A DNA stretch of 32,647 nt, taken from positions 1-32,647 of the IMG/VR virus record IMGVR_UViG_3300044647_001921. One strand, written 5' to 3'. The translations under genes were made by a program, and so were the position numbers. Shown here one piece after another: positions 11,090 to 30,551 of this stretch (position 1 is its first letter; the number at the start of each line of letters is the position of its first letter). The notes under the pieces are model-generated. The model made no database searches, was not told where the DNA came from, and saw nothing but the letters and a program-made list of their open reading frames with translations. This stretch comes from a virus.

Positions 11090-12268
11090 TTATCTTGTAA
11101 CTTTAAAATAATAATTGTTATCAAAAAATGTAACAACATCACCGCCATCTGTTTCTACTTTAACAACAATTCTATAAAATCTTTCAGGTTGAAAACTGTT
11201 CATCCAGATATTGAAATAATTTCCAGTTGAATCACAACTAATTTTTGTTCCAATGTTATCAAACGGAAGTATTATTTCATCCGTGTGTGCATCTCTAACC
11301 TCATAATATGAAGATGATGGTAGATAGTAATTTACGTTGTAATAAGATTGTGTTGAATATGTTTTTGTTGGAAATAATTTATTAGCGTGTATTCTAATTT
11401 TTGCCTTTTCATTTTGAGAATAGAATTTTTTCAATTTTAAATTTAAATTTATACCATTTTCAGGAACAGGATTTAAACTTCCAGTAGAAAATTCACTGTC
11501 ATCCCAAACAACATATAATTTTGGAACATATATTGTATTGCTATCTGTTCCAAAAAACTTTAAACTTGTACTTGAATCATTAGATGTTTCAACATCATTT
11601 GAAAATTTTAATATAAACCCATCGTTTTCAATTCTTGCAGATCCCGTTATCCATCTTTTTGCAATATCGGTAACATTCATATAAACATCCGATGTTTGAT
11701 AGTAAAAAGATTGTGTACATTCTAAATCATCATAATCCCACCAAGTTCCACCACCTTCATTAGTATTGTATGATGATGTAACACTAATCGATATACGATT
11801 TCCCCATACTGCGTCATCTTGAATCCAAGTTTGTGATACTTCATCCCATTCTAAACTAGATAAAGTAGGTGGTATGTCCCACATGACACCAACATTTTTT
11901 GATGTTCTATATGTCCAAGATACACCATCAGTTGTTATAGGTTTATTGTAAAATTTTCCAGTTCCGTTTATCCAAGAAGAACTAACTGGATATGCATAAA
12001 CTGTGTACTCTTGTGGAATTTCTCTAGAATCAACTGTTTTTAATGAAAGATAATATTTTGCATTTTGAGATATTTTTCCAGAATTTACTTTTTGTTCTAT
12101 ATCATCCATATCAAATTTCATCAATATTCTACTGTTGTATATTTTTCCAGATCCAGATGTCCCTTCATATAAATGAGATAGTTCTACTAATTGATCTAAA
12201 CCAGTATTTTGATGTTCTGTTTTTTCGTATATTGTTGCGTCTTTTTGCGCATATATTGTATAAATCAT
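11090..12268 (-). CDS. DNRLRE-like beta-rich baseplate wedge-region protein
   Basis: The product has 392 residues. The N-terminal half resembles DNRLRE-type beta-sandwich domains: AQKDATIYEK at the start, a gap, SRILMKFDMDDI, then DVYMNVTDIAKRW, GFILKFSN and a VPKLYVVWDD strand. These domains are known from surface and cell-wall proteins and occur in phage baseplate regions. The C-terminal part has further beta strands ending YYFKVTR. The start overlaps the gp6-like stop by four bases (ATGA), with GAGGG upstream, which implies coupled translation. Position between gp6 and the gp7-like gene matches the place of a wedge component such as T4 gp8, but I see no sequence likeness to gp8 that I could defend. 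Confidence 0.82.
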   Translation of the reverse strand: MIYTIYAQKDATIYEKTEHQNTGLDQLVELSHLYEGTSGSGKIYNSRILMKFDMDDIEQKVNSGKISQNAKYYLSLKTVDSREIPQEYTVYAYPVSSSWINGTGKFYNKPITTDGVSWTYRTSKNVGVMWDIPPTLSSLEWDEVSQTWIQDDAVWGNRISISVTSSYNTNEGGGTWWDYDDLECTQSFYYQTSDVYMNVTDIAKRWITGSARIENDGFILKFSNDVETSNDSSTSLKFFGTDSNTIYVPKLYVVWDDSEFSTGSLNPVPENGINLNLKLKKFYSQNEKAKIRIHANKLFPTKTYSTQSYYNVNYYLPSSSYYEVRDAHTDEIILPFDNIGTKISCDSTGNYFNIWMNSFQPERFYRIVVKVETDGGDVVTFFDNNYYFKVTR

Positions 12269-14157
12269 CCGAATGCCCTCACTCTACCGATAATATCATT
12301 TTGTGGATATTTTATTTCAAATATAGAAGGATCTAAAGATGGAAATATTATTCCGTCTTTTGTAGCAGCACCAATATTGTATGCATGTTGTGAATACCCA
12401 AGCGTTTGATCATATTTATTTACAATCTTAACATTAACAACAGTTTGTACACCTTCAACTTTATCTAATTCTGTAAATATATTACTTATTACTATTGGTT
12501 GATTTATTTGCCATCTTTTAATATCAAAGTAGTTTGAAATTCTATCAATACACCTTAAAATAACTTGATTGCTATTCTGATTTGGTATAGTCATTATATC
12601 AAATTCAACACCAATATTTATTACATATGCGTCTCTGATGTTTATGGCATCCGTTAAGATTCTATGATAATTTAAATATGTTTTAATATTTTCCTTTGTG
12701 GCATCATTTACAGTAGTTAAACGTTGGTCTCCGTCATATCCCAATACATAAAAATTTAAAGCCAAGCCATTTTGAACACGATCACTATTGTAAACAGATT
12801 CTCTTGTTAATTGTGTATCTTTTGTGATATATGCCTTTGCAATAGAACCATATCTTGAAGGCATACTGTATGCCCTTATTATGTAATCTTCTTTTGTAAC
12901 TGCACGATTTTGTGATGCAAAATAAGCAAGAGCGTTTTCTCTAATTTCATTTGGAGTTTCTTCACCCTTTGCACCTTTTGCCGGTTCTGGATTTGTAACC
13001 GCAAGACTTGATATTGATTGTTCATATAAAACAGGATCTAAACCTGTTTCATCTATCAACAATACCTTACTTATTACTCTAGTTAATGTATCACTACTTA
13101 CATTATCGGATAAACCATTTCCTGTTGTATAAAAAACACTCAATGTTGTATTATTTGGTGCCAATCCATATGTTTTTGTGTATAAAAAGTTTGAAGGATC
13201 TATGTCAAATGATGTTGATCTATCTATACCAACAAGGGAACTACCAACCAAATCTGGATTTGGTATCAATTCTTCATCATCAAGGTCTGAAACACCTGCA
13301 CCAAAATTTATTTCATATCTAGTATCATCTATTTGTCTTGTGGAAAACCTTCTAGCAACCTTTTTTAATTTCAATAAATACGGTGTCTCATCTCTGTATG
13401 TACTCAATTGAGTATCATTTCTTGGTATATTCAATACCGGTTCAAATATAGTATCTTGTGCTAAAAATGGAACATGATACCAAACATTATTATCAGAATC
13501 AACGGCATATAAAACTTCTATCAAATCTGATTCTTCTAAAATTACACTATCGTATGGTTTTGGATTTCCAAAATCATAATCAATTTGTTGTATTGTTCCA
13601 GATGTTGCCCTTACTGATTTTTTTAATAGGAAAAATAAGACTTCACCGTTGGTATCTACTTCAAATGGTGTAACTTCTGTTGGATCAATAGAACTACTAA
13701 ATTTAAAATCAACATAATCAATTGTTCTAAATTCAGTATTCGATGTCAAATCAGTATTTCCAACAATCATATCAGGTTCGATTGCAAAAGCATAATTGTA
13801 ATCCGGAACAATATTACTGCCAATTTGTATCGATGGAACTATTTGAAAAACATCAAGTTTTACGTTTGAAGCAATTTTTCCTTTTGGTCTATATCCAAGT
13901 GATTGTGCAATATTTAATATGTTTGGCTTTTCTGTTGCATGTAGTATCATAGATTCCTGTAATGTAACATCGGTATAATATGATAAAACATCACCAACAT
14001 AAGCTGCCATTTCTAAAAACATCATACCAGGAGATGCTTCATTAAAGTCTTGATATGTATTTGGAAAATAATTTTTTGTAAAATCTATAAGATTTTGCTT
14101 TAATGAAGAAAAATCTCTTGACAAATATCTTATATCTTTTTTAACTAAATCAGCCAT
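12265..14157 (-). CDS. Baseplate wedge protein, gp6-like (J-like family)
   Basis: The product has 630 residues. The N-terminal segment has the family marks of T4 gp6-type wedge proteins: RDFSSLKQNLIDFTKNYFP, DFNEASPGMMFLEMAAYVGD, VLSYYTDVTLQESMI, then NILNIAQSLGYRPKG. Later parts include the core signature of the wider J-like group, with APNNTTLSVFYTTGNG and NEIRENALAYFASQNRAVTKEDYIIRA, and a C-terminal domain with VEGVQTVVNVKIV. In T4, gp6 forms the ring that holds the wedges together. The start overlaps the gp25 stop by eight bases, with AGAGG ten bases upstream. It runs directly into the DNRLRE-like gene. This is one of the firmest assignments in the window. Confidence 0.93.
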   Translation of the reverse strand: MADLVKKDIRYLSRDFSSLKQNLIDFTKNYFPNTYQDFNEASPGMMFLEMAAYVGDVLSYYTDVTLQESMILHATEKPNILNIAQSLGYRPKGKIASNVKLDVFQIVPSIQIGSNIVPDYNYAFAIEPDMIVGNTDLTSNTEFRTIDYVDFKFSSSIDPTEVTPFEVDTNGEVLFFLLKKSVRATSGTIQQIDYDFGNPKPYDSVILEESDLIEVLYAVDSDNNVWYHVPFLAQDTIFEPVLNIPRNDTQLSTYRDETPYLLKLKKVARRFSTRQIDDTRYEINFGAGVSDLDDEELIPNPDLVGSSLVGIDRSTSFDIDPSNFLYTKTYGLAPNNTTLSVFYTTGNGLSDNVSSDTLTRVISKVLLIDETGLDPVLYEQSISSLAVTNPEPAKGAKGEETPNEIRENALAYFASQNRAVTKEDYIIRAYSMPSRYGSIAKAYITKDTQLTRESVYNSDRVQNGLALNFYVLGYDGDQRLTTVNDATKENIKTYLNYHRILTDAINIRDAYVINIGVEFDIMTIPNQNSNQVILRCIDRISNYFDIKRWQINQPIVISNIFTELDKVEGVQTVVNVKIVNKYDQTLGYSQHAYNIGAATKDGIIFPSLDPSIFEIKYPQNDIIGRVRAFG

Positions 14158-14641
14158 TATTTAATGCCTCTGTGATGTTTAAGTTACCGGTTTCATCTAT
14201 AAATATCTGTATTGGCAAATATATTCCAGTATCTACTATTTGTACAATCAATGATATTTTTATCGAATGGTCTCTTTCGTCTTCTTGTTCGTCTGCTAAA
14301 TTTGCATCCAATCTACTAATAACCAAATATGGCATCCATTCTGTTATCGATGAACGAATTTCATTTTTCAATGAATCAAAAAATTCGTCTTCGGTTGATA
14401 TATTTTCAAACAATAAAGTTCTTATATCTGTTCCAAATGTTGGCAACATATATCTTTCACCCTTTGCAGTTAATAGTAAATTTTTTAAGTTTGAGTATAC
14501 TTGTTCTTCATTTGTATATCCTAATTTAAAAATCCCCTTTGGGTTATTAAATGGTAATAAAACACCAAGAGGTTTCGCATACTTTAAATTTGTAGCGGTA
14601 TCACTATTTGGAATTACCTTTTTTCTTCTAAAATAAGACAA
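14150..14641 (-). CDS. GPW/gp25-type baseplate wedge protein, TTG start
   Basis: The product has 163 residues. The motif GERYMLPTFGTDIRTLLFEN (about residues 61-80) is the hallmark of the GPW/gp25 family. It is followed by the expected helix and the strand pair around SIKISLIVQIVDTG. In T4, gp25 sits in the wedge and starts sheath assembly at the baseplate. The only sensible start is TTG at 14641: GGGAG lies seven bases upstream, and the next methionine is inside the conserved motif. Its stop overlaps the gp6-like start, the same gp25-gp6 order seen in T4-like and other contractile systems. The older name 'lysozyme-like' for this family reflects annotation history; no catalytic residues are evident here. 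Confidence 0.93.
   Translation of the reverse strand: MSYFRRKKVIPNSDTATNLKYAKPLGVLLPFNNPKGIFKLGYTNEEQVYSNLKNLLLTAKGERYMLPTFGTDIRTLLFENISTEDEFFDSLKNEIRSSITEWMPYLVISRLDANLADEQEDERDHSIKISLIVQIVDTGIYLPIQIFIDETGNLNITEALNNG
14198..14208 (-). promoter_or_regulatory. Promoter-like motif GATATTTATAG inside gp25, before gp6
   Basis: This is an exact copy of the 11-base motif also found at 15811-15821 and 26708-26718. Here it is read through as coding sequence (IFID) near the 3' end of gp25. About 40 bases separate it from the gp6-like ATG at 14157. The spacing suits a -10-type element with a short leader. Chance conservation of IFID codons is the alternative. Confidence 0.35.
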
Positions 14642-15132: not shown

Positions 15133-15777
15133 TCACCAAACTATTGCATTTGGAAATCCTGGATATCCAGTTGGAACAACAACTTTATTATTTATTATCA
15201 AAGAAGTTGATGTTCCACTATCCAAAAATACAGCGTGTTTAACATTTCCCAAGTCATAAACTTTATTTCTTGGTATTATGTAATTTGTTGATTTCGCGTA
15301 AATGTAAACGAAAAAAGTTCCATCGTAAAAAGTTCCTATTATTGTCCTTCTTGCCGGTTTCTTTGGAGAATACATTTTGTCTTTAGAACCATCTAATATA
15401 CCAACAGGAGTTACTGAAACTATGTACTTTGCATTTGTTGGTAATGTTGGTTTATTTTTTACAACATGAAATTGATTATTTTCTATGTAAGCAATATGTG
15501 GAACTGATCCTCTACCATTTTTATAGAAAGGATCATAATGTCTATCATCTTTATACGGTCCAACCCACCAAGGATAATGATAATCAAAAAATGAACAATT
15601 TATTCCATTTTTTTTACCAGAAAGTCTGATAAGTTCTGGCAATGGGAGTAAATTTAAGTTTTTACTTATTTTTGATTTATTGTCATTTGGAACTTCTGGT
15701 GCAAAAAACTTAACGTCCTTTACCTTGAGTTTAACCAAATACTCCACACCAGGAACAAGTTCTATTACACCATCCAT
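15133..15777 (-). CDS. Stand-alone phosphodiester glycosidase-like (NAGPA-family) protein
   Basis: The product has 214 residues and aligns end to end with the C-terminal ~225 residues of the 1395-residue protein encoded just upstream. Family landmarks are NGINCSFFDY (residues 58-66), RRTIIGTFYDGTFFVYIY (143-160) and AVFLDSGTSTSL (182-193), ending GYPGFPNAIVW. The family includes enzymes that cleave the phosphodiester bond between N-acetylglucosamine 1-phosphate and a sugar, and many bacterial members of unknown substrate. Here the usual DSGGS reads DSGTS, so activity is not assured. There is no signal peptide. GGAAAA lies before the ATG at 15777. Being beside the fused copy, it probably arose by tandem duplication. 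A role in cutting phosphate-linked surface glycans is inference. Confidence 0.8.
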   Translation of the reverse strand: MDGVIELVPGVEYLVKLKVKDVKFFAPEVPNDNKSKISKNLNLLPLPELIRLSGKKNGINCSFFDYHYPWWVGPYKDDRHYDPFYKNGRGSVPHIAYIENNQFHVVKNKPTLPTNAKYIVSVTPVGILDGSKDKMYSPKKPARRTIIGTFYDGTFFVYIYAKSTNYIIPRNKVYDLGNVKHAVFLDSGTSTSLIINNKVVVPTGYPGFPNAIVW

Positions 15778-15810: not shown

Positions 15811-15821
15811 CTATAAATATC
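15811..15821 (-). promoter_or_regulatory. Promoter-like motif GATATTTATAG before the stand-alone glycosidase
   Basis: The motif starts within the TGA stop codon of the 1395-residue gene (TGATATTTATAG) and ends about 33 bases before the ATG at 15777. It is followed by ATTTAATGGAA, a stretch also present after the copy at 15106-15116. An out-of-frame ATG in that stretch lies 13 bases before the true start. Confidence 0.42.
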
Positions 15822-18800
15822 ATTGCCAAACCAAAAAGTTTGGAAATGTCTTATATCCTGGTTTTACAATCGTTTTTCCACCATAGAATAAACAAGTAGA
15901 ACCTCCACTATCTAAAAATGCAGAATCTTTTATTCCTGGTAATTTTAATAGTTTTTTAACTGCATCGTATCTTGTTAAATATTGCTTCGAATCATTAGGT
16001 TTAAATATGTATACAAACATATTACCGTCATCCATATTCCCAATTATAGTCCAAGGTCTATTATCGCCACCTCTCGGTGCAATATTTTGACTACTTGCAT
16101 TTGTTGCTCTAACTTTTACAGAAAATACATATTTTGAATCATTGGGAACTGGAAGATACTTTTGAGTTGCTATTTTAAAATAATTGTTGGTATCAATATA
16201 TGCATAATAACCAACATCACGAGATACAGGTGTTCTCTTATATGCAGGAACACCGTCTCTTTCTACATCGGTTATAGCATCATTTTTAAATGGAGGAATG
16301 TAATGTACTCCAAATTTATTTTTACTTGCACTCAATGTATCTTCAAAATATGAACAGTTTATACCATTTACTGCATTTGCAGCTTCTAAATATTCTTCCG
16401 GGGTATACATTTTTTTCCCAACGAGTTCAGATGGTCCAGATGTTGGTATGGTTACAATATTTACTTTTGCGGGATTAATTTTTATGAAATATTCACCTGG
16501 ACTTATTTGTATGTTGTCATTAACTGGCTGAGGTGCTGTGTTTATGTTTGAATTTGTAGTTGTGTTTTGTTTTGGTATAGTATTACTTTTCGACTCCATC
16601 AATCCAAGACCGTTACTCAAAGGTCCAGGATATAGAAAATATTTTTCACCTTTGCATATTGTCTGTAATCTTCTATTTATGCCTTTATCTTTGTCATGTG
16701 TAAAAATTCCATTTACAGCGTTTGCTCCTAATAAAAAATAATCAGAAGCTTTTGTCCCATTACCATCTTTTTTCTCATATCCACCATCAGTTTTGTAATA
16801 TAGTTGTGCACGTGTAGCACCCAAAAGATGTGATATAGCCAAAAGACCGGCAAGTTCATCACATCTCATTGCATTTATTTTTTCTTTTGAAATTGCATTT
16901 TTTCCAGATTGCAAATATCTATAATTTAGTTTTATTAATTGTTGCATTCCAATTTCTTGTGCAATAGGGCAATTTAAATATTGAGTCAAACTACCTATTT
17001 TTAATTTTGACATTCTTCGATTATTCCAAACTTTTTTTGATTTCCAACTACCACTGGTTGTAAAAGTATCTTTAAGTGCAGTATATCTTCCAAATTGGTA
17101 TCTTCCTGCATAATTGTTGTTAGAACCACCCATTATATCATATTTTGAGGTCGATTCTGATGCAGCAATTGCGGCCATAAGATTTGCAATCTGTGCAGGT
17201 GTTAATCCACCTCTACAATTATTCATTTCAACAGAATCCATTACTTTTGTTGTTGCTTGAGCACTTACACCAGGTATACAAACTGGAATTTTTAAATTGT
17301 ATTTTTCTCTTAATTGTTTGCAGTTTTCTTTACTAACTTGTTCCATATCAAGTGGATTAACATAATCTTGTGATATGTATTCTGGTTCAGTTGTTTCTCC
17401 ATCTAATTTAGTATCATCTTCACGTTCTGCAGAATTTGCAGTAGAACATATATTAACATCGGTAATATACGGTAATAGTTTATCGTAATATGAAGAATTT
17501 ATTTTTTCAGACAGTCTTTTATCAGTTTTTGATTTTTCAATAACTCGAAAATATCTTTTAAAAATTGGAGTTGTAAATAATTTATTTGCCAATCCTGGAG
17601 ATTCTCTGTATATTTCTGGTTTTGGTCCACTTTTAACCTTAGCAACTATTACAGATCCATTAACATATGTATTTGCGGTTGCTTTGGCAAATTTAGCAAA
17701 ATTAGTAATTTTTACAGCAATATGGTTTCCAGATTTAATACTCGAATCACCATCGGGAATATCAGTATTACCACCAATAGTAACTATTTTTCCGTTTTCA
17801 TCCATATACAATAAAACATCCGTATAACATAATGTTGAATTTGAAGCATGGTGAGGTACTGCAGAAATTGTAGCCATTGACCATTTTAAATTATTATTTA
17901 TATGATTTACTAATTTTTTTCCCCTATCCGTTAATGTTCCATTTCTATTTATATGATAACCAATAATAAAAATTGCTATTGTAGAATCTTCTTTTTCTTC
18001 TAAATATTCTTCAGAATTTGAATATTTTGGATCCAACCAAATTTTACTTGGTTTAAATATTCTATTTTTTACACCAAGTTCTTTCATTTTAGACCAAGGC
18101 ATAACTTCATTCCCAGGATGATTAACAAGTCTTCCTCTAGAAAGTATAGATCTATGATAAAAGTCTATATTTGTTCCTAATTTTTCTTGTAACGTAAATG
18201 CAGAATTTTTTAAACAATGCTCTGCGAATATACCAGACCATCTTGGATAATTTGCCCAAGAAGAATCTGGTACTTTATTTAAAGCATCACTATCATTTAA
18301 ACCTCTACCTATTGCAAGTTTTCCTTTATTTATTATTTCAGATTCTAATATAGTCATATGTAGTTCATTTTCAGATTCATATATGTATCGTATGTTATTA
18401 TTCATAACACCAGATTGATACGAATTTAAAACTATTGGAACATCTATTGGTGAGTTTATTGTAGGAACACCCTTTAGTAGTTTTTTCCAATCACCTTTTA
18501 CCTCAGGTTCACCATCAGGATTTTTTTCATCTTTTGGTGGTGCCCAATATGGAATAACTGCAGAAATTAATTCTATACCTTTATCAGAAATAGTTGTTTC
18601 AAATTTTTCATATCCATAATTTGGACCAGAATTTAGACGGTATGCCCAATATCTATTATACCAAGGACCACTTTTTTTAACCATGTTTTCTAAAGTGTCT
18701 GGATAGCTAACTATTCTTTCAGATGCTGTATTTTTTGGTTTAATTTCGGGTTTTTTAGTTGAACCGGCAAAACCAAAATACACAGTTTGATTTTTTTGAA

Positions 18801-20007
18801 TATTTTCTGATTTAATTTCAGATATATCATTAATCTGCATCGTTACACCAGGACCATTATCTCTTTGCATCCAGAATTTCTTTTCACTTTTTATTTTTTG
18901 TGCCTCTTCCGGTAATGCCTTTATTATTATTGGTGTTGCACCTATTCCAGTTATAGAATATGTTTTTAATCTCTCCTCCAACTGTTTTTGGGCTCTATCA
19001 GATGTACCCATTAAACCTTCTTCCAAACCACTCTTTGAGTTGTCATCCGTTTTTATCTTTTCTGTATAAGTTATTGGTAGAATGTAATATCTGTGATTAT
19101 ACTTATTAGAACTAAATTGTGGTTTTTCATTTTTTGTTGGTGGTATTGCATCTTTTTTTATATTACCGGCATTAGCAGCAGCTGCATTTGATTTTCTAAC
19201 CGCAGGCCTTTTCTCGTTAGTTTCACATTTATCAGATTGACTGGTTACGGGTCCTTTAGATTTTGGTTCTTTTGTTGTTGTGGTTAATGAATTATTCAAC
19301 TGCCCTTCTAATATATTACCAAATTCAGACTTTTTAGATATATCTGGATTTGCTTTAGTATTTGAAGCAGGTGTTTGTATTTTTATTTTTGCACTACCAT
19401 CTTTATTAACAGTAATGTTATTTTTTATCCAATTTGCTGTTGCATTTACAGTTCCTGCATGATTGCCACTATGAGGGACATTATTTGCAGACGGTAACAA
19501 TGATTCATATTCTTTAACAACCTTTAATAATTGCCCATCACCATTTTTTCTTTTATCGTTTCTTGTAGAATGAACGTATACAAGTTTTGATGAAACAGGT
19601 TTTCCGTTTTTATCTTTTGTGGTTAATGATGTTATTAAATTTTTATTTGACGTATAATTTCCTTTATACGTTGGAATTGCAGCGCCTGAACTAAAAACTA
19701 AATCCCAATTCTCCTTTGGATAGATATTTTCCAAGTATTCTGCACCTAATGAATATCCAACGAGTATTTTTTTAGACGGATTTATACCTTTTGATTTTAG
19801 TATAGATTTGCATTCATCCCATGCTTGAGAAACTTTTCCATCCTGTGTTCTATTAATATTATAGATATTAAAATCTTTTAGAGTGTCAAAACCAAGTGAT
19901 TTCATATAATTTCCTGGTTTTTCTCCACCAATATCCTTTCCACCTATAATAAAAATAAGTGGAGCGTTTTTATTTAATCGTGATTCTATAAATTCACCAT
20001 ATGCCAT
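15820..20007 (-). CDS. Giant multi-domain hub-region enzyme: alpha/beta hydrolase, lysozyme-like and phosphodiester glycosidase domains
   Basis: The product has 1395 residues. Residues 1-200 look like an alpha/beta hydrolase: APLIFIIGG strand, nucleophile elbow GYSLG with Ser86, YVHSTRND with candidate Asp151, and GNHAG with His183. A linker rich in K, N and T follows. About 300-780 is less clear; WSGIFAEHCLK (590-600) and PHHASNS (His719, His720) followed by IGGNT suggest a DUF2272/NlpC-like papain fold, low confidence. About 935-1120 looks like a lysozyme or transglycosylase: AAIAASESTSKYD with candidate Glu951, YAGRYQFGRY, and LLAISHLLGATRAQLYY. Residues ~1168-1395 are a NAGPA-type phosphodiester glycosidase (NGINCSYFE, WTIIGNMDDG, FLDSGGSTCLF with Asp1366). 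Its place after the hub genes suggests a virion-carried envelope-opening protein. AGAGAG precedes the ATG. No signal peptide. Confidence 0.85.
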   Translation of the reverse strand: MAYGEFIESRLNKNAPLIFIIGGKDIGGEKPGNYMKSLGFDTLKDFNIYNINRTQDGKVSQAWDECKSILKSKGINPSKKILVGYSLGAEYLENIYPKENWDLVFSSGAAIPTYKGNYTSNKNLITSLTTKDKNGKPVSSKLVYVHSTRNDKRKNGDGQLLKVVKEYESLLPSANNVPHSGNHAGTVNATANWIKNNITVNKDGSAKIKIQTPASNTKANPDISKKSEFGNILEGQLNNSLTTTTKEPKSKGPVTSQSDKCETNEKRPAVRKSNAAAANAGNIKKDAIPPTKNEKPQFSSNKYNHRYYILPITYTEKIKTDDNSKSGLEEGLMGTSDRAQKQLEERLKTYSITGIGATPIIIKALPEEAQKIKSEKKFWMQRDNGPGVTMQINDISEIKSENIQKNQTVYFGFAGSTKKPEIKPKNTASERIVSYPDTLENMVKKSGPWYNRYWAYRLNSGPNYGYEKFETTISDKGIELISAVIPYWAPPKDEKNPDGEPEVKGDWKKLLKGVPTINSPIDVPIVLNSYQSGVMNNNIRYIYESENELHMTILESEIINKGKLAIGRGLNDSDALNKVPDSSWANYPRWSGIFAEHCLKNSAFTLQEKLGTNIDFYHRSILSRGRLVNHPGNEVMPWSKMKELGVKNRIFKPSKIWLDPKYSNSEEYLEEKEDSTIAIFIIGYHINRNGTLTDRGKKLVNHINNNLKWSMATISAVPHHASNSTLCYTDVLLYMDENGKIVTIGGNTDIPDGDSSIKSGNHIAVKITNFAKFAKATANTYVNGSVIVAKVKSGPKPEIYRESPGLANKLFTTPIFKRYFRVIEKSKTDKRLSEKINSSYYDKLLPYITDVNICSTANSAEREDDTKLDGETTEPEYISQDYVNPLDMEQVSKENCKQLREKYNLKIPVCIPGVSAQATTKVMDSVEMNNCRGGLTPAQIANLMAAIAASESTSKYDIMGGSNNNYAGRYQFGRYTALKDTFTTSGSWKSKKVWNNRRMSKLKIGSLTQYLNCPIAQEIGMQQLIKLNYRYLQSGKNAISKEKINAMRCDELAGLLAISHLLGATRAQLYYKTDGGYEKKDGNGTKASDYFLLGANAVNGIFTHDKDKGINRRLQTICKGEKYFLYPGPLSNGLGLMESKSNTIPKQNTTTNSNINTAPQPVNDNIQISPGEYFIKINPAKVNIVTIPTSGPSELVGKKMYTPEEYLEAANAVNGINCSYFEDTLSASKNKFGVHYIPPFKNDAITDVERDGVPAYKRTPVSRDVGYYAYIDTNNYFKIATQKYLPVPNDSKYVFSVKVRATNASSQNIAPRGGDNRPWTIIGNMDDGNMFVYIFKPNDSKQYLTRYDAVKKLLKLPGIKDSAFLDSGGSTCLFYGGKTIVKPGYKTFPNFLVWQ

Positions 20008-20022
20008 ATAATCTCTCTAGTA

Positions 20023-21558
20023 TTAATTAACTTCAGTTTCAAAGTCTGCACCTTTGGTACCAGTGGGGTTGTAGAATCCATTTAGAAGTGATTTTAATTC
20101 TATTAATGGGTTTCCATCTCTAGAAGGTTTTTTAGTCCATTCTAAATTTTCATTTAATGCAGGATTAACAAACAATTCGTGCCATTTTGATTTTGTTGGA
20201 AATGGTCGTGGAGCAACTTTATATGCTGTTGATTTTGGATTGCCAACATGACAATGATTGAGTCCACCTTTGGTTTGCCGAGCATAATAATTACCACGTT
20301 TGTAATATTTCAAGCTTAAATCATCTGAAGCGTTTCCTTCGATGGTGACTATCGACTTATCTTCTGTAACCAATAGAACTATACCAGCGTGACCACAGTT
20401 ATCCTCATCTGATTGTGATCTAAAAAATATAGATCCAACTGTTGGTTCCCATGAGGCAGGAGCACCCCAATTCGTAACTTGAAGTGTAGCAGAAGCAGAG
20501 GATTGTGAATTTCTTGTAAATGGAATTTTATTTGGATTGTTTTTATACGAATTTATAGAAACAAGCGTACCTTTATCATTTTTAGTTTTGTGTTTTACTT
20601 CTAAACTTGCCATTGCAAAACAATATATCACACTAAGCGTTTCTGCACACCAATGAGTTTCTGTTCTATGAGATCCTGGATAGTTTTTTATTTTACTCGA
20701 ATCCTTATCAATCATTCCTTCATAAAATTTTTTTAACCTTCTTTGTGGTGGAAACCCTTTCATATCAGAATGCATTCCAAACGATGGATCATTTGGATAT
20801 TCATAATTTGAATAAAATGCATCAGTGTCCAGAATAAGTTCCCATTTTCTTTTTCTTGCCCTACCATTCTCGTCTTTTAATTTTTTATCTTTATCGGTTA
20901 ATGGTTGCCACTTTAACATATCAATTGCAACCCATACAACTTCTTTTTGTAAATCATTCAAACCTGTTGCATCCGGATCTGTACAGTTTAGTTTTTCAGC
21001 AGATTCTGCTCCTTCGAGTCCATCTGACTGTTGATCCGATTCTTCACCAGTTGCTTCTTCTGCCGGTTCGTCTGTTGCACAATGCTCACCGTTTTTTAAA
21101 CCATTAGCACTATTTCTATTTTTGGAAGCATCTGTTGCAGTATCTGCAGGATTATCAGGTTTACCTGGTATATTTTCCTGTTTTCCATCTTTGACATCAC
21201 TGGTATCTATACCTTTTTTTGTTGCGTCTTTTTGAAAATCAGTATCAAATCCAGTTCCACTATCATCATCTACGGTATCTACATTTGAATCTATTTCTTC
21301 AGTTTCTTCTGTTTTTGAACCATCATTTTGAGTTGTTGTTTTTGTTGTAACCGTACCATTTGGCGTTGATGTTACACTAACACCAGTTTGATTTTTTGTA
21401 TTTTGTTTTTGTTGATTTGCTTTGTTAAGTTCTTCTATTTCTGTTGAATATCGTTTTCGTATTGCTTCCCTTAATTTTTTAAAATTTAAACGTTCCAATT
21501 CTTGCTCGGTTAATTCTTCATCAACGTTTTCCATTTCATTTATTATTATACCAGACAT
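20023..21558 (-). CDS. CHAP-like cysteine peptidase/amidase in the baseplate hub block
   Basis: The product has 511 residues. Residues 1-50 form a charged helix (ELTEQELERLNFKKLREAI), and about 50-190 are low-complexity, rich in T, D, E, N and probably unstructured. The C-terminal half resembles a CHAP/papain-like peptidoglycan hydrolase: THWCAETLSVIY puts a candidate catalytic cysteine at residue 304, PTVGSIFFRS follows, CGHAGIVLLV gives candidate His390, and TIEGN supplies the usual third polar residue. Such enzymes cut peptide or amide bonds in peptidoglycan. No signal peptide is present, so delivery with the tail is more likely than secretion. GGAG lies eight bases before the ATG. It sits between the leucine-rich-repeat protein and the giant multi-domain protein. 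A stand-alone endolysin is the alternative. Confidence 0.82.
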   Translation of the reverse strand: MSGIIINEMENVDEELTEQELERLNFKKLREAIRKRYSTEIEELNKANQQKQNTKNQTGVSVTSTPNGTVTTKTTTQNDGSKTEETEEIDSNVDTVDDDSGTGFDTDFQKDATKKGIDTSDVKDGKQENIPGKPDNPADTATDASKNRNSANGLKNGEHCATDEPAEEATGEESDQQSDGLEGAESAEKLNCTDPDATGLNDLQKEVVWVAIDMLKWQPLTDKDKKLKDENGRARKRKWELILDTDAFYSNYEYPNDPSFGMHSDMKGFPPQRRLKKFYEGMIDKDSSKIKNYPGSHRTETHWCAETLSVIYCFAMASLEVKHKTKNDKGTLVSINSYKNNPNKIPFTRNSQSSASATLQVTNWGAPASWEPTVGSIFFRSQSDEDNCGHAGIVLLVTEDKSIVTIEGNASDDLSLKYYKRGNYYARQTKGGLNHCHVGNPKSTAYKVAPRPFPTKSKWHELFVNPALNENLEWTKKPSRDGNPLIELKSLLNGFYNPTGTKGADFETEVN

Positions 21559-21575: not shown

Positions 21576-24092
21576 TTAAGCAATAACTTTTATGTTTTCA
21601 TCGAGTTGTAACTTCAATCTAATATTATATTCATCTAACATTTTTCCATTTATTTGATTATTTGCAATAAATGATGCCTTTGAATATAATTTTGGTAATT
21701 CATTTCCCGTTACAATAAAAGAACTATCAGTTAGATAATTTCTACTAACATTCAACTCACCATATACAGTCATATTAGAATACATATTATCTATTAAATT
21801 ATTTGAAAAATTTATGTTACCGTTTACAAAAAGGTTTATTTGTTGGCCTGTATTTGGCAAGGAATGTAATGATTTTAATTTATTATTAGAAACATCAACA
21901 TTATTCACAGTAAACATACCTTTTAAATTTTCTAATTGATTATTCATTGCATAATATGTACCATATACATTATTTGGTCCACCAATCAAATCAACTAAAC
22001 TATTATTAGAACAATCAAAATTACCATTAACTGTTTCTGGTGAATTTTGCAATGAAGTTAGATTCATATTTTTACATATAAAATTTCCTAAAACTCTATG
22101 TATTTTAATTGGTATAGAGTTTAATGGGTTTCCATCCTTATCTTTTTTTCCAGTTAGTGTTATGCTACCATTGTAAATATATGGTGGTGTAATTTTACCT
22201 TGTGAATCTTTTTGAAATAAATTTAAATCTAATTCTAGATAATCCGGAAATGGATTATCCGATGAATCTTGTGTTGATTTTTTATTATCAATTTCGGATA
22301 ACATTTCATTAATAGATTTTGTACCAACTTCTTCATATTCAAATCTATCAACATCATCTCCAGAATTTTTCATAGAATATGCAGCTTCTAATGCAGATTC
22401 ATATTGGTCATCGGTTATTCCATGTTGTTCCTTATAGTCCTTGATGGTATCGGAATTTTTTGATTGCTGCATTTCTAAAGTTTCAACATGATTTAGCAAT
22501 GATTCTGTATAAGATTTTGAAAGTTCATCTAATTTTTTGTATTCTTTTAATTTATTAATAACTTCTTTAAATTTAGCAACACCACCTTTGTCATCAGTGA
22601 ATCCCATTGATACTGCCGCAACTTTTTGGATTCTGTAATCCAATTTATCAAAATTTTCCATAAATTTTGTATTACCAGATGTATTATTATCCATCAACTC
22701 AGAATTTGGTTCACTTATCACCTCATAATTTATTATAGGTTGTTGTGGATCTCTGCCTGATTTAGTGGCTGCATTATCTAATTCTCTTACAAAATCACTA
22801 AATACGTTGTTGTATTTCATACCCATTATTTTTTTTATATCTCTATTCGTTGGGTTTTGGAAATTAAATCCGGATTTATTTGGTAATAAAACAATATTGT
22901 TACCTAAATTATTTTTTAAAAATTCAACAAAAAATTGACCATTGGGTAATTTCAATTCGTAAATAGAATATGGTATACCATTATATCTAACAATACCATC
23001 TTTTGAAATTTCTATACCCTTTTCTTCTATTATTTTTTTTCTTTCAATTGCCTTTTGTCTCATATCATTTACAGTTGTTTTTGTAAATGAACTTTCCCAA
23101 AATGTTCTATCATTTTTTGATATTTGATCAAAACTATAAAAATACCCACTTGTTGTTGGTAATGGTTCTTGTATGGTGGATGTGAAAGATTCAACAACAA
23201 CTTTGGGTTTTCTAGCAGGCGGGTATTCTGGTGGAGCACTACCAACTGGTTGGCTAGGTCTTAAATTTGGCAAATTTCCAACTTGTATCTCTAATAAATC
23301 AAATACATCATATTCAAACAAATATACTATCAATTCTGGTTTAGTTATACCACCCTTTACTCCCTCGACTTCTGTTAATTGAAATGATGCTTGGAAATCA
23401 TCACTCGAAATAGTTGGTGGATTTGTTATTTTTATTATACTCTCTGGTTTAGTAAATTTTCCCAACATTTTTTCAAACTCTGGTTTTAAATTAGATTGAG
23501 CCATCTGTATTGCCTTGTCCTTTACAGATTTTGAATTTGACATTAAATCTACTGATGTTTTCATGGAATCTTTTAAAACATCCATATTTGGTAAAAAATT
23601 ATTTTCCATAATTTTTTGTTTTACAGTTTCATCTAATTTATCAAATTTTGCCATATCCTTAATATCTGCAAGTATTTTTACGGAATCTTTCGATTTAACC
23701 ATATTTTCTATTTCTGTTGCATTTATTCCAATTTTTGCACCAAGATTACTTAACAAATCTTTATTTAGCAAATCTTTTGTTAAGTTTTTTTCTGTTATTT
23801 TATCAAGTAATTGTTTTTTAATTTCAGAAGGATTTGAAGTATCTATTCCAGATAAAGATATTCCATCGGTAATTTCGTTTATTGAACCTAATTTATTGAC
23901 ATCTAAACCCAATGAAGATGCAACTGTTGATAATTTTACATCACCTAAATCTGACAAGGACACATTTTTATATTTCTCCTTGACATCATTCATAACAACT
24001 GATGTATTCTTTATGTTATTTTGTACATTTTCTTTTTCTTTTTCAATGGTAGTACCAACTACCCCTTTAAACATACCTTTTATATCTGCCAT
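21576..24092 (-). CDS. Baseplate hub-region protein with C-terminal leucine-rich repeats
   Basis: The product has 838 residues. Residues 1-210 are helical and rich in K, D and N, starting MADIKGMFKGVVGTTIEKEK. About 220-330 are more beta-like, with KPELIVYLFEYDVFDLLEIQ and a proline-rich linker near residues 280-300. A second helical part spans about 350-620. From about residue 662 to 810 there are leucine-rich repeats of about 20 residues: GNFICKNMNLTSL, GNFDCSNNSLVDL, NNVDVSNNKLKSL, GNINFSNNLI. The same kind of repeat ends the gp5-like protein upstream. GGAG lies eight bases before the ATG. By position it belongs to the hub or to the machinery that carries the enzymes encoded next. I do not recognise the N-terminal part and do not equate it with T4 gp27 or gp29. 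Confidence 0.83.
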   Translation of the reverse strand: MADIKGMFKGVVGTTIEKEKENVQNNIKNTSVVMNDVKEKYKNVSLSDLGDVKLSTVASSLGLDVNKLGSINEITDGISLSGIDTSNPSEIKKQLLDKITEKNLTKDLLNKDLLSNLGAKIGINATEIENMVKSKDSVKILADIKDMAKFDKLDETVKQKIMENNFLPNMDVLKDSMKTSVDLMSNSKSVKDKAIQMAQSNLKPEFEKMLGKFTKPESIIKITNPPTISSDDFQASFQLTEVEGVKGGITKPELIVYLFEYDVFDLLEIQVGNLPNLRPSQPVGSAPPEYPPARKPKVVVESFTSTIQEPLPTTSGYFYSFDQISKNDRTFWESSFTKTTVNDMRQKAIERKKIIEEKGIEISKDGIVRYNGIPYSIYELKLPNGQFFVEFLKNNLGNNIVLLPNKSGFNFQNPTNRDIKKIMGMKYNNVFSDFVRELDNAATKSGRDPQQPIINYEVISEPNSELMDNNTSGNTKFMENFDKLDYRIQKVAAVSMGFTDDKGGVAKFKEVINKLKEYKKLDELSKSYTESLLNHVETLEMQQSKNSDTIKDYKEQHGITDDQYESALEAAYSMKNSGDDVDRFEYEEVGTKSINEMLSEIDNKKSTQDSSDNPFPDYLELDLNLFQKDSQGKITPPYIYNGSITLTGKKDKDGNPLNSIPIKIHRVLGNFICKNMNLTSLQNSPETVNGNFDCSNNSLVDLIGGPNNVYGTYYAMNNQLENLKGMFTVNNVDVSNNKLKSLHSLPNTGQQINLFVNGNINFSNNLIDNMYSNMTVYGELNVSRNYLTDSSFIVTGNELPKLYSKASFIANNQINGKMLDEYNIRLKLQLDENIKVIA
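21650..22092 (-). repeat. Leucine-rich repeat region in the 838-residue hub protein
   Basis: Successive repeats carry a pattern of the form GxFxCxxNxLxxLxxxPxxV, with asparagines and leucines in step. At least four units are readable, then the pattern decays (GELNVSRNYL, SFIANNQI). The boundaries are approximate. Confidence 0.7.
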
Positions 24093-24118: not shown

Positions 24119-26362
24119 TTATGGTATTCCTAAAACTTTCAAACTTCCATCAGAAGTTCCATCCCAGTTTTCTTGAATCCATTTATAGTCTAATGGTTTT
24201 TTAGATACTTGATTGTCAATATGTACACTGTTTGTTATAGTCAAAACACGTGTTTCTCTTTTAATAATTTCATTTGTTAAATTACACGATGATATGAATA
24301 AATGACCTATTGACTTATTTTCTCTTAGTCCTTTCAAAGATGTAAGTTTTTTGTTTTGATCAACTCTATAAGTTTCTATATTACTTGTTGGACCACCAAC
24401 AAGATTTGTCAAATTGTTATTTGTTGCAGAAAATTCTATATTTACTATTATAGGTCCTCCATTAAGACTTACCAATCCTGAAAAATCAACTTTATATCTA
24501 TCTGCAATCTCAGGACCATCTACCAAATCATCTAAATTATTATTTGATGCATCAAAATCGATAACACTATATGGAGAATTTTTTAATGTAACCAAACCCA
24601 TTCCGGAGCAATCAAACTTACCACCAACTTTACCAAATGGAACTGGAATTTCCATTAATTTATCCACACCAGGAATTTTTGAGTTTCTTAAATCAATATC
24701 ACCTTCATAATTTAAATTACCTTCTTCATCAAAACTAACCATATCTATATCAGAAATTCCCAATTGTCTAAATGTTATCCCATTCGGATAATTTTGGTTT
24801 TTACTATCTGGTATCATCGTATCCAGTGTAAAATCAGTTAATTCCCCATCAACAGTTTCATTTGCAGTGTTTTCTTCTGGAACCGTATCTGGAATATCTT
24901 CATTGTTGATTTCACTATTAATTTCTTGTAAGTCTTCAAGTATTTTTTGTTTTTGTTTTTCTATATCATCTATTTTTGCAGTTAAAGTTACAACATTAGT
25001 TGGATCAGCAACAATTTTTTCAGTTTGTGGTAAATAATCACTGGTTGACATTAAATCTTGTTCTGAAGGCATTGGTTTTACATATCCCTCATTATTTTTA
25101 CTTCTGTCTTTAGCTTCAGCGGCAGCATCTGATTTTGGTCCACCACCCTTTTCATTTACAAAAACCAAATCACTTGGTAATTTTTTTATTTTTGATCTTA
25201 AACTTTTTACTTTTCCTTGTAATGAAGTAAATGCTCCTGCATTTATAGGAGGACCAGTTGGTCCAGTATTTGATGTATGAGTCTCTTGTGCAATATGTCC
25301 TAATGCAGAATAAAACAAATCACATAAATCTGCTAACCAATTCATAGTAACGTCACCAAGTAAAACAGGATGAACTGCGTTTACACCGATGTTTACTCTT
25401 GATGATTCCATTTCGATAACATCTTTACCATCTATAGCAATACCTTTCATAGATGAAAGTCCTATACCCTCAGCTGAAAATATCGCAGTTTCTTGTTTTT
25501 TTGAATTTAGTATTAATCTATCCGAAGATATTATTATCTGATTACCTGCAAATTCATTTTTGTTGTGCAAATCTACGGATCTATTTTTAACAGATGGTGT
25601 AAATTCACTTCCAGGTGTAAACTTAACTGCCTGTCCAGATGTCATCCATATCGTAGAATCATCTTTGTCAATTTCTTCTTGTATAAAATCGTTGAATGGT
25701 TTATCGGTTGGGTTTGTTCCATTTGATATAATTAACACAGGATTACCGACTGCACCCAATCCACTTTTCCAATGCGGTTTAACGGGATAATTCCTAGTTT
25801 CATCTATGGTAGATCCTAATCTTATTGAATTTCCAAATCTACCTTCGAGTATTACATCTCCTGGATAAGGTTGAATTGGGTATACATCAATTCTTTCGCC
25901 AAATTTTGAATCGATTGTATCTTGCAATTGCAATCTTTCTTTTACTTTATTTGTAATACCATCGGATGCATTATCTCTCGTATTTTTATCTCTACCATCT
26001 GCACCATCTGGAAGAAATGATGTTACACCAGGAATACCATTATGATGAACAGAACTTTGTATAGAAACAGGATTTGTATAATAATATTCTTTAGATGGTC
26101 TCCCTGCACTATTGTATGCAGTTGGTCCTTTTGTTATGAAAACAACTTCGCCTTTTATTGGAATATTTTTTATATTAGCATCAAGTGGTCTTGCAGTTAC
26201 AACATCGCGTGTTGCTTGAGAACCATATGGTGCTAACATTTTACAGGTGACAGAATACAACTTCTCACGATTTTCACCAAAATAATCTACATCAACTACT
26301 TCGGCAGCAACAAGTTCATATTCAAAACCATCAATTATTGTTTTTTGGTAATTTAGTCCCAA
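24119..26362 (-). CDS. gp5-like baseplate hub/spike protein with C-terminal leucine-rich repeats, TTG start
   Basis: The product has 747 residues from a TTG at 26362, with GGAAG six bases after its end upstream; the next methionine is 41 residues in, inside conserved sequence. The N-terminal part has an OB-fold-like spike/hub character (LYSVTCKMLAPYG, then IPIKGEVVFITKGP, YYYTNPVSIQ). Residues around 240-330 (FAGNQIIISSDRLILNS, IFSAEGIGLSS, IDGKDVIEMES) are the rigid beta segment typical of gp5-like proteins in T4-like phages. No lysozyme insert is visible, unlike T4 gp5; enzymes are on the genes that follow. After a charged helical linker (about 400-500), residues ~575-715 form leucine-rich repeats (GGKFDCSGMGLVTL, DFDASNNNLDDL, EFSATNNNLTNL). 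It overlaps the preceding gene by 32 bases. Confidence 0.87.
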   Translation of the reverse strand: MGLNYQKTIIDGFEYELVAAEVVDVDYFGENREKLYSVTCKMLAPYGSQATRDVVTARPLDANIKNIPIKGEVVFITKGPTAYNSAGRPSKEYYYTNPVSIQSSVHHNGIPGVTSFLPDGADGRDKNTRDNASDGITNKVKERLQLQDTIDSKFGERIDVYPIQPYPGDVILEGRFGNSIRLGSTIDETRNYPVKPHWKSGLGAVGNPVLIISNGTNPTDKPFNDFIQEEIDKDDSTIWMTSGQAVKFTPGSEFTPSVKNRSVDLHNKNEFAGNQIIISSDRLILNSKKQETAIFSAEGIGLSSMKGIAIDGKDVIEMESSRVNIGVNAVHPVLLGDVTMNWLADLCDLFYSALGHIAQETHTSNTGPTGPPINAGAFTSLQGKVKSLRSKIKKLPSDLVFVNEKGGGPKSDAAAEAKDRSKNNEGYVKPMPSEQDLMSTSDYLPQTEKIVADPTNVVTLTAKIDDIEKQKQKILEDLQEINSEINNEDIPDTVPEENTANETVDGELTDFTLDTMIPDSKNQNYPNGITFRQLGISDIDMVSFDEEGNLNYEGDIDLRNSKIPGVDKLMEIPVPFGKVGGKFDCSGMGLVTLKNSPYSVIDFDASNNNLDDLVDGPEIADRYKVDFSGLVSLNGGPIIVNIEFSATNNNLTNLVGGPTSNIETYRVDQNKKLTSLKGLRENKSIGHLFISSCNLTNEIIKRETRVLTITNSVHIDNQVSKKPLDYKWIQENWDGTSDGSLKVLGIP
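24225..24632 (-). repeat. Leucine-rich repeat region in the gp5-like hub protein
   Basis: Repeats of about 20-22 residues follow the pattern FxxxxNNLxxLxGGP, e.g. DASNNNLDDLVDGP and SATNNNLTNLVGGP, then KKLTSLKGL. They are of the same type as those ending the 838-residue protein downstream. The boundaries are approximate. Confidence 0.72.
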
Positions 26363-27820: not shown

Positions 27821-28480
27821 TTAACCCCTCTTATGTTTTGGTGGAATTATTACATCAATAACTCCAAGATTTAGAGCATCAGATGGTGTAATGTAATAAT
27901 CTTTTATTGTAACATTTTTCCAAAATTCTATATCTTTGTTTGAATTTGATTTTAGTATTTCCAAAAGTATTTCTTCCAATTTTTCCATGTGTTGAACATT
28001 TGCTTTCATATCGGAAGATTTACCATAAATATCGGAACTAATTTCATGGAACATGATAGTTGAATATTGTGATGCCAAACGAACACCTGTTCCAGCACAA
28101 AGAATAAGAGCGGCAGCAGACATTGCCCTACCTCTACAAATCGTATTAACTTTTATATCAAGACTTTGCATATAATCAATTATACCGAGTGCTTCATATA
28201 CAGAACCACCATCAGAATTGATGATTAAATTTATTGGATCGTTTTTATGCTCTTCTTTTCTCATGTGCATTATTGCACGAATACGAGTTATTATATCATA
28301 TAATGATCCATCCATTATTTCACCAAACAACAGAACTGTTGATGCCTCAACATCAATTCCGTAATCCATCTGTGTTGTTGCTTCTTTCCATCTAACTGGA
28401 ATGTCATTTTCATTTTCTTTTGATTTATTGTTAGTTTTTTCTTTTTCAACAACTTCTTCGCCATCATAAAAATCGTTCAT
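27821..28480 (-). CDS. ClpP-like serine protease
   Basis: The product has 219 residues. The Clp/crotonase fold motifs are in order: LLFGEIMDGSL, LIINSDGGSVYEALGI, GRAMSAAALIL with candidate nucleophile Ser121, YSTIMFHEISS with His145, and KDYYITPSDALNLGVIDV with candidate Asp194. The catalytic triad of the ClpP family thus seems intact. An acidic and lysine-rich N-terminal extension (about residues 1-28) replaces the usual N-terminal loops. AGGAG lies eight bases before the ATG. In many phages a ClpP-like protease processes the prohead, but no capsid gene is near; here it lies among a UV endonuclease, membrane proteins and the late sigma factor. It may degrade host proteins, join host Clp ATPases, or still act on proheads. 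Confidence 0.9.
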   Translation of the reverse strand: MNDFYDGEEVVEKEKTNNKSKENENDIPVRWKEATTQMDYGIDVEASTVLLFGEIMDGSLYDIITRIRAIMHMRKEEHKNDPINLIINSDGGSVYEALGIIDYMQSLDIKVNTICRGRAMSAAALILCAGTGVRLASQYSTIMFHEISSDIYGKSSDMKANVQHMEKLEEILLEILKSNSNKDIEFWKNVTIKDYYITPSDALNLGVIDVIIPPKHKRG

Positions 28481-29645: not shown

Positions 29646-30551
29646 TTAGATTCCGTATTCTGTTAGGTATCGTTTGAGAGCCAGCTCTTTTGCTTTACAT
29701 TCTAACATAATATCAAGGTCATGTCCGTATGTGTTGATTTTTTCCAATATGTAGTCTGCATGAGCTTGTGGTTTTTCTTTTGGATTACCAGTCTCTTTAA
29801 GTCTTGATGAAGAATAATGAACTGCCGGTGTAATACCTTCTGGCCACGTTGAAATGGCAAGTTCAAGTGCTTGTTGTTCAGTCAAATCGCCAGTGCAGAA
29901 TTGGTGGTGGTGATAGTCAAATACAATGGGAATATCACAACATTCGTGAATTTTCATAAGGTCTTTAACTGAATACATATTTGGTTTATCATCATTCTCA
30001 ATCGTAAGTCTTGAACGAACACTATGAGAAAGTAATTGAAAGTTTTGACACCAACGGTCAAGTGATGCGGTTTTGTCACCATAAACACCATTGCAATGTA
30101 TATTGATTTTGTTGTATGGTGTATGTGATAATCCCATCATATCAAATACTCTACCATGTAGTTCCAAATCAATTATTGTATTCTTGACAACATCTGGATT
30201 TGGTGAACATAAAACATTAAATGGACCAGGATGACATGATAGACGGACACCATGTTCTTTTGCATAGTCACCAATTCGTTTGAGAACAATTTTTATTTTA
30301 TCAATATCTTTAAGTTCTTCTAAATCATATTCAGAACCCCAAGGAAATACATTAGAAGATGTGCGGAATAAGTAAATACCGTTTTGAACATTCCATTTGA
30401 TAATTTTTTCCATATCAACAACATTCAGATAAGCAAGTTCAGAACAGTAGTCTAAACCTTTTTGTAGAAATGTTTTTTTAATCATGGAACGGTTGGTAGT
30501 GATTTTATCTTTTGATAAAGTCATATTGATACAGGCATATCCGAGTTTCAT
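29646..30551 (-). CDS. uvsE: UV damage endonuclease (UvsE/UVDE family)
   Basis: The product has 301 residues, the normal length for the family. The enzyme is a TIM-barrel metal-dependent nuclease that nicks DNA 5' to UV photoproducts. All main motifs are present: LGYACIN at the start, FRTSSNVFPWG (63-72), LSCHPGPF with His107, INIHCNGVYGDK with His152, LTIENDD with Glu185, VFDYHHH with Asp212 and His215, AVHYSS with His245, KPQAHADYI with His264, and IMLECKAKE with Glu284. These match the metal-binding set of the bacterial enzymes, so it is likely active. No Shine-Dalgarno is visible before the ATG. It lies 63 bases after the glycosyltransferase gene. T4 solves the same problem with the unrelated DenV enzyme. 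Confidence 0.95.
   Translation of the reverse strand: MKLGYACINMTLSKDKITTNRSMIKKTFLQKGLDYCSELAYLNVVDMEKIIKWNVQNGIYLFRTSSNVFPWGSEYDLEELKDIDKIKIVLKRIGDYAKEHGVRLSCHPGPFNVLCSPNPDVVKNTIIDLELHGRVFDMMGLSHTPYNKINIHCNGVYGDKTASLDRWCQNFQLLSHSVRSRLTIENDDKPNMYSVKDLMKIHECCDIPIVFDYHHHQFCTGDLTEQQALELAISTWPEGITPAVHYSSSRLKETGNPKEKPQAHADYILEKINTYGHDLDIMLECKAKELALKRYLTEYGI

Follow-up and report, generated by a model that had tools for sequence, protein, structure and literature searches.

The window analysed here (positions 1 to 32,647 of IMG/VR record IMGVR_UViG_3300044647_001921, a 32.6-kb fragment) originates from a freshwater T4-like phage, and its tail-baseplate gene cluster contains a gene encoding a fusion protein of 1,395 amino acids (aa). 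As predicted from the sequence or from structural models, this protein comprises, in order, an alpha/beta serine hydrolase, a degenerate papain-like core, a tail-type lysozyme, and an NAGPA-type phosphodiester glycosidase. The proposal of an initial annotation of this DNA that three different enzyme-type domains (alpha/beta-hydrolase, lysozyme, and phosphodiester glycosidase) are united in a single baseplate-cluster polypeptide is supported by fold and family evidence. The protein is probably a modular virion-associated lysin with a degenerate lysin as its core; it would be located within the baseplate hub or on its surface and would open the envelope at entry. The gene and its parts are as follows.

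15820..20007 (-): hub-slot multidomain protein, 1,395 aa, stop codon in range (orthologues present; conserved slot)
19393..20007 (-): domain 1, residues 1-205, predicted alpha/beta-hydrolase (serine esterase-like), Ser86/His183, probable acid Asp157
18712..19392 (-): residues 206-432, linker and poorly modelled region (low predicted local distance difference test score, pLDDT)
17461..18711 (-): core, residues 433-849; papain-like (TIGR02594/CHAP type) part at 584-790, catalytically degenerate (core profile, alignment)
18235..18237 (-): Ser591, at the catalytic Cys position of relatives (W-C-G; alignment)
17824..17826 (-): Tyr728, at the catalytic His position of relatives (H-V-E; alignment)
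16597..17217 (-): domain 3, residues 931-1137, tail-lysozyme/lytic transglycosylase-like, Glu951 (profile matches)
15823..16512 (-): domain 4, residues 1166-1395, NAGPA-type phosphodiester glycosidase (PF09992 and fold match)

Domain organization of the hub-slot protein

Full-length orthologues with 83-84% identity were found in two independent contigs, and a partial one with 99% identity in a third. Since the long open reading frame is intact in these related contigs, an assembly artefact is ruled out. The motifs quoted in the initial annotation are all present, i.e. GYSLG (residues 84-88), Glu951 in AASES, GRYQFG (968-973), AISHLLGA (1057-1064), NGINCSYFE (1214-1222), IIGNMDDG (1321-1328), and FLDSGGST (1364-1371), together with WSGIFAEHC (590-598) and HHAS (719-722). 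The ratios of non-synonymous to synonymous substitution rates (dN/dS) between the window and the related locus L004 (related loci are given as L numbers) indicate purifying selection in domain 1 (0.18), the core (0.08), the lysozyme (0.30), and the NAGPA domain (0.32). Residues ~330-420 are specific to the sub-clade of the window and correspond to a gap in other relatives in the alignment. The alignment for fold prediction was built from contiguous rows.

In domain 1, Ser86 of the GYSLG nucleophile elbow and His183, both of which had been proposed as catalytic, are invariant in 15 of 15 homologues with identities down to ~31%. The predicted model has pLDDT values mostly of 70-92 in this domain, with a helix starting at Ser86, and its best fold match in the PDB is the esterase domain of LC-Est1 (Z 12.1 over 172 residues, root-mean-square deviation 3.5), with numerous further alpha/beta-hydrolases ranking behind it. 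The acid suggested earlier, Asp151, was rejected, as this position is not kept among the homologues (Gly in L003 and L004). Asp157 is the more likely acid on sequence grounds, being Asp in 12 of the 15 homologues; the other three (L012, L013, and L015) have a Glu there or an Asp at a shifted position. Searches of Pfam, PDB sequences, and GenBank phages found no relatives of domain 1 by sequence.

Domain 3 belongs by profile to a tail-lysozyme family in which the Glu is conserved, in agreement with the lysozyme/transglycosylase-like segment around Glu951 recognized earlier. With an E-value of 1e-22, the L009 orthologue matched phrog_27932 ('baseplate hub subunit and tail lysozyme'). A profile of the window, L003, and L009 sequences matched the hub proteins of phages OLIVR5, RL2RES, and phiM9 (~1e-21) and, less strongly, two other phages (1e-15 to 1e-14). 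Glu951 and the GxYQxG motif are kept in all eight aligned sequences, including those of five named phages. A PDB sequence-profile search gave nothing usable. The fold matches of the low-confidence model are weak (Z 3.3-4.5) and include Slt, Cj0843, the phi6 lysin, and a GH23-type chitinase; those to lytic transglycosylases and the phi6 lysin appear coherent.

For domain 4, the phosphodiester glycosidase assignment drawn from its motifs is supported by a match to the NAGPA fold, again in a low-confidence model (6pku, Z 11.5, 169 residues; NAGPA structures including 6pki matched at Z 10.3-11.5), and by the L009 domain, which scored above the Pfam cut-off of 25 bits for PF09992 (29 bits, versus 19.6 for the window). 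Sequence identity of domain 4 to the NAGPA/uncovering enzyme (6pku and 6pki) and to BACOVA_00430 (3ohg, DUF2233), the known proteins matched by fold at Z 10.6-11.5, is low (9-15%), and a PDB sequence-profile search reached E 0.067 only. Scans for relatives of the lysozyme and NAGPA domains recovered only the same few contigs. The gene directly following the fusion gene encodes a stand-alone paralogue.

15133..15777 (-): stand-alone paralogue of the NAGPA domain, 214 aa, encoded by the next gene (PF09992, 24 bits; 34% identical to domain 4)

Microcystis phage Mel-JY01 has a stand-alone NAGPA-like gene too (the loci concerned are 15133-15777 in the window and 2866-3498 in L153). Another phage protein with a predicted NAGPA-like structure is an 838-aa protein of Staphylococcus phage vB_SscM-1.

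Some of the attached domains might bind surface glycans or lipids instead of acting as enzymes, the alpha/beta-hydrolase and the NAGPA domain being the foremost candidates. The fast divergence of the NAGPA domains (30% identity between the window and L009), the passing of the Pfam NAGPA cut-off in L009 only, and the non-universal acid of domain 1 would suit such modules. We consider this unlikely, however, given the invariance of Ser86 and His183 across 15 divergent sequences and the retention of the NAGPA motifs DGxxxFxY and FLDxGxS in both the fusion protein and the stand-alone paralogue.

The degenerate core and its attached modules

Relatives carrying a gp6-type wedge gene were collected from 80 loci. 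The wedge genes of the window that serve as landmarks are the following.

12265..14157 (-): gp6-type baseplate wedge protein (phrog_219, 6.9e-22)
14150..14641 (-): gp25 baseplate wedge protein (PF04965, 5.4e-11)

In all loci that are long enough, one protein of 363-1395 aa occupies the slot, which is flanked by the gp5-like gene on one side and the 146-gp25-gp6 genes on the other. Among the 43 non-identical slot proteins of at least 300 aa, 30 contain a core matching residues 433-849 and the other 13 have a GH19-type domain instead, and a muralytic-type or papain-like domain is present in every one. The central region is the conserved core of this baseplate slot. Replacement of the whole slot protein by a GH19-type protein is seen in L031 (5918-7009), L048 (2002-3639), and L088 (7948-8979), with extra collagen-like and M15 parts in L031 and L048, respectively. 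Judged by the wedge protein, Microcystis phage Mel-JY01 is the nearest named phage (71%), and its slot gene is annotated as 'putative chitinase'. Mel-JY01 is also the closest cultured relative found, and its slot protein is of the GH19 type only. A scan of bacterial and archaeal genomes with the core found no match and therefore provides no clue to a host or prophage.

The core is related to proteins that keep a catalytic Cys and show the hallmarks W-C-G, H-V-E, and G-G-N in the alignment. Profile comparison between the core and this Cys-keeping family gave an E-value of 1.4e-47 (probability 100%), and the Cys-lost and Cys-keeping groups are, as judged from sequence, one family. TIGR02594, which we take to be a W-C-type papain-like family, was matched by 3 of 14 Cys-keeping members (best E 0.0047); a weak profile match (39%) links the Cys-keeping members to the intact CHAP family encoded next door, and the order of secondary structures in the core model fits a papain-like fold. 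Pfam and PHROGs did not recognize the core, and a PDB sequence-profile search with it gave nothing usable.

Whereas the Cys-keeping relatives share the W-C-G, H, and G-N order of the TIGR02594/CHAP family, the protein of the window lacks both the Cys and the His that an active papain-like peptidase requires, having Ser591 and Tyr728 instead. Within its clade, the Cys is replaced by Ser or Asp and the His by Tyr, Phe, or Arg, with the His still kept in L010, L012, and L015. The fourth, papain-like domain proposed earlier thus stands as a family assignment, by homology to the Cys-keeping relatives, and is not supported as an active enzyme. Two other candidate residues were rejected: Cys598, since the papain-like Cys position corresponds to Ser591, and the HHAS motif, in which neither His719 nor His720 is conserved (HST in L009, SHT in L026). 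Although its active site has been lost, no other part of the protein is as constrained as the core, as would fit a structural role.

The C-terminus lies at the core in all 15 Cys-keeping proteins scored, whereas all 20 Cys-lost proteins continue for 212-546 further residues (Cys state versus C-terminal extension, 15/0/0/20). In the tree, Cys loss is confined to one clade (support 100/99) and therefore represents one evolutionary event, not twenty; a Fisher p-value for this association was accordingly rejected as independent support.

Apart from the domains found in the window, the modules of Cys-lost relatives include a T4-type lysozyme (PF00959, 3e-21), GH19, and a VanY/M15 peptidase. Five contigs have cores that are 90-99% identical, yet the modules attached to these cores assort independently of one another. 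Between L096 and L101, identity is 99% in the core but only 42% in the hydrolase and 48% in the C-terminus, and their glycosidases are unrelated (GH19 versus T4-type lysozyme). L095 and L029 have cores 98% identical with different glycosidase types, L029 and L101 have hydrolase domains 95% and C-termini 53% identical, and L095 and L101 have C-termini 85% identical with no shared glycosidase. These sequence comparisons indicate that hydrolase, glycosidase, and C-terminal (VanY/M15 and NAGPA) modules have been exchanged within the Cys-lost clade, and that the fusion in the window is no one-off, since the conserved core carries several interchangeable arrangements of which this is one. The slot-protein C-terminal extensions in L012 (5263-9009), L015 (1876-5601), and L022 (5788-9009) have no Pfam match at E 0.1; those of L012/L015 and L022 may be further lytic domains.

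A probable role in entry and relation to known systems

The fusion protein combines a cell-wall hydrolase domain (the Glu951 lysozyme family) with a gene position in the tail/baseplate module, as virion-associated lysins do; its virion location, activities, and substrates we infer. The core would dock the protein in the tail and would therefore have been conserved after activity was lost. Tail contraction would bring the enzymes to the envelope, where the lysozyme would cut the glycan strand, the serine hydrolase would take off an ester or acyl group, the NAGPA domain would take off a phosphodiester-linked sugar, and the neighbouring CHAP protein would cut the peptide cross-links no longer cut by the dead core. 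A tentative extension, which we consider a real possibility short of likely, is that a peptidase of the ancestral hub, once its active site was lost, came to serve as a docking platform. Different envelope-cutting enzymes would attach to either end of it and pass between phages much as receptor-binding tips do, and the set of entry enzymes would thereby follow the envelope of the host.

Several points weigh against a virion-associated lysin of this build. The fold match of the lysozyme is weak, with no plausible relative exceeding Z 4.5, and the C-terminal model is of low confidence (mean pLDDT 48). The association of Cys loss with extension is a single event without independent statistical weight. 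The papain-like assignment of the core draws on the order of its motifs, its secondary structure, TIGR02594, and a profile match that is weak; when residues 1-860 were searched by fold, matches to the alpha/beta domain took up the results.

The protein could also be a late lysis enzyme of endolysin type, placed in the baseplate cluster by chance and acting at cell burst instead of entry, and the attached GH19 (phrog_181) and T4-type lysozyme (phrog_7) modules do best match endolysin-annotated families. This is quite improbable in view of the constant gene position, with hub genes on one side and wedge genes on the other across dozens of related loci, a size of 1000-1400 aa with a conserved non-catalytic core, and the membership of the window's lysozyme in the tail-lysozyme family of rhizobiophage hub proteins. 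A core that has remained catalytic, using Ser591 (or Cys598) as the nucleophile together with another His, is very improbable: the strong conservation of the core and the retention of Cys598 in nearly the whole clade would accord with this reading, but the nucleophile position (Ser/Asp) and the His position (Tyr/Phe/Arg/His) vary within the clade and His719 and His720 are both unconserved.

A single lysozyme is the usual picture of the entry lysin in Gram-negative phages. If the protein is a baseplate lysin, its alpha/beta-hydrolase and NAGPA domains would point to envelope bonds not usually counted as entry barriers. In this slot, a former enzyme would serve as the scaffold, and the lytic domains can be exchanged around cores that hardly differ, a pattern that makes it testable whether entry enzymes are adjusted to host envelope chemistry as tail fibres are.

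The closest known systems are the hub/tail lysozymes of rhizobiophages OLIVR5, RL2RES, and phiM9 (phrog_27932), which share the lysozyme family, the Glu, the GxYQxG motif, and the baseplate hub setting. In these phages, however, the lysozyme lies within a gp5-type hub protein of ~860 aa, whereas in the window it belongs to a separate slot protein with three other domains; the earlier idea of entry enzymes placed outside gp5 is supported. T4 carries one tail-borne lysozyme for entry inside its spike protein gp5 (PMC6116005), whereas none was detected in the gp5-like protein of the window, the enzymes residing in the neighbouring fusion. According to the available text of PMC6116005, virion-associated lysins are large tail proteins with cell-wall-cleaving domains that tend to be large and multifunctional, and virion endopeptidases occur almost exclusively in phages of Gram-positives; that text does not include a combination of alpha/beta-hydrolase, lysozyme, and NAGPA domains on a degenerate papain-like core. 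Domain shuffling in endolysins and tail proteins, with recently exchanged modules and highly similar parts joined to unrelated ones, has been described with stress on receptor-binding proteins and endolysins (PMC10684548), whereas in the family of the window exchange occurs at both ends of a hub-slot core. Multifunctional virion lysins and shuffling of phage lytic and tail domains are known; neither PHROGs nor the GenBank phage set yielded the core or the domain combination (~50,700 phage records), and absence of the combination and its dead core from the collections searched is not proof of novelty. A literature search on phosphodiester glycosidases in phage tails found nothing relevant.

Neighbouring genes

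Two genes on the upstream side bear on the interpretation.

20023..21558 (-): upstream gene, CHAP-type protein with intact W-C-A / G-H / E-G-N (Pfam CHAP, E 3e-4)
24119..26362 (-): candidate hub or spike protein of gp5-like type, 747 aa, lysozyme domain not found (phrog_4011, Pfam)

CHAP scored above the Pfam cut-off in the L026 and L103 versions of the upstream gene, and the W-C-A / G-H / E-G-N motif is invariant. An intact CHAP is found upstream in the window, L009, L022, L026, and L103, an M15 domain in L095, and a marginal GH19 match in L082. In the DNA searched, an intact CHAP gene lies upstream in many Cys-lost loci and in no Cys-keeping locus, and no CHAP511-type gene was found around Cys-keeping cores. 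The upstream gene is itself a variable lytic-enzyme slot (CHAP, M15, marginal GH19, or of unknown type, as compared in L082, L095, L099, and L029).

The gp5-like protein is weakly supported as gp5 by its sequence match to phrog_4011 (E 0.028). The earlier statement that it contains no lysozyme holds at the sensitivity of Pfam, because no Pfam match was obtained there. The gp5-like protein and the product of the next gene (21576-24092) share ~33% identity over ~160 aa at the C-terminus, and the common stretch looks like leucine-rich repeats, which is unusual for the spike/hub region. The window also encodes a ClpP-like head maturation protease (27821-28480; phrog_94, 4.9e-34) and a UvdE-type UV endonuclease (29646-30551; PF03851, 6.6e-60).

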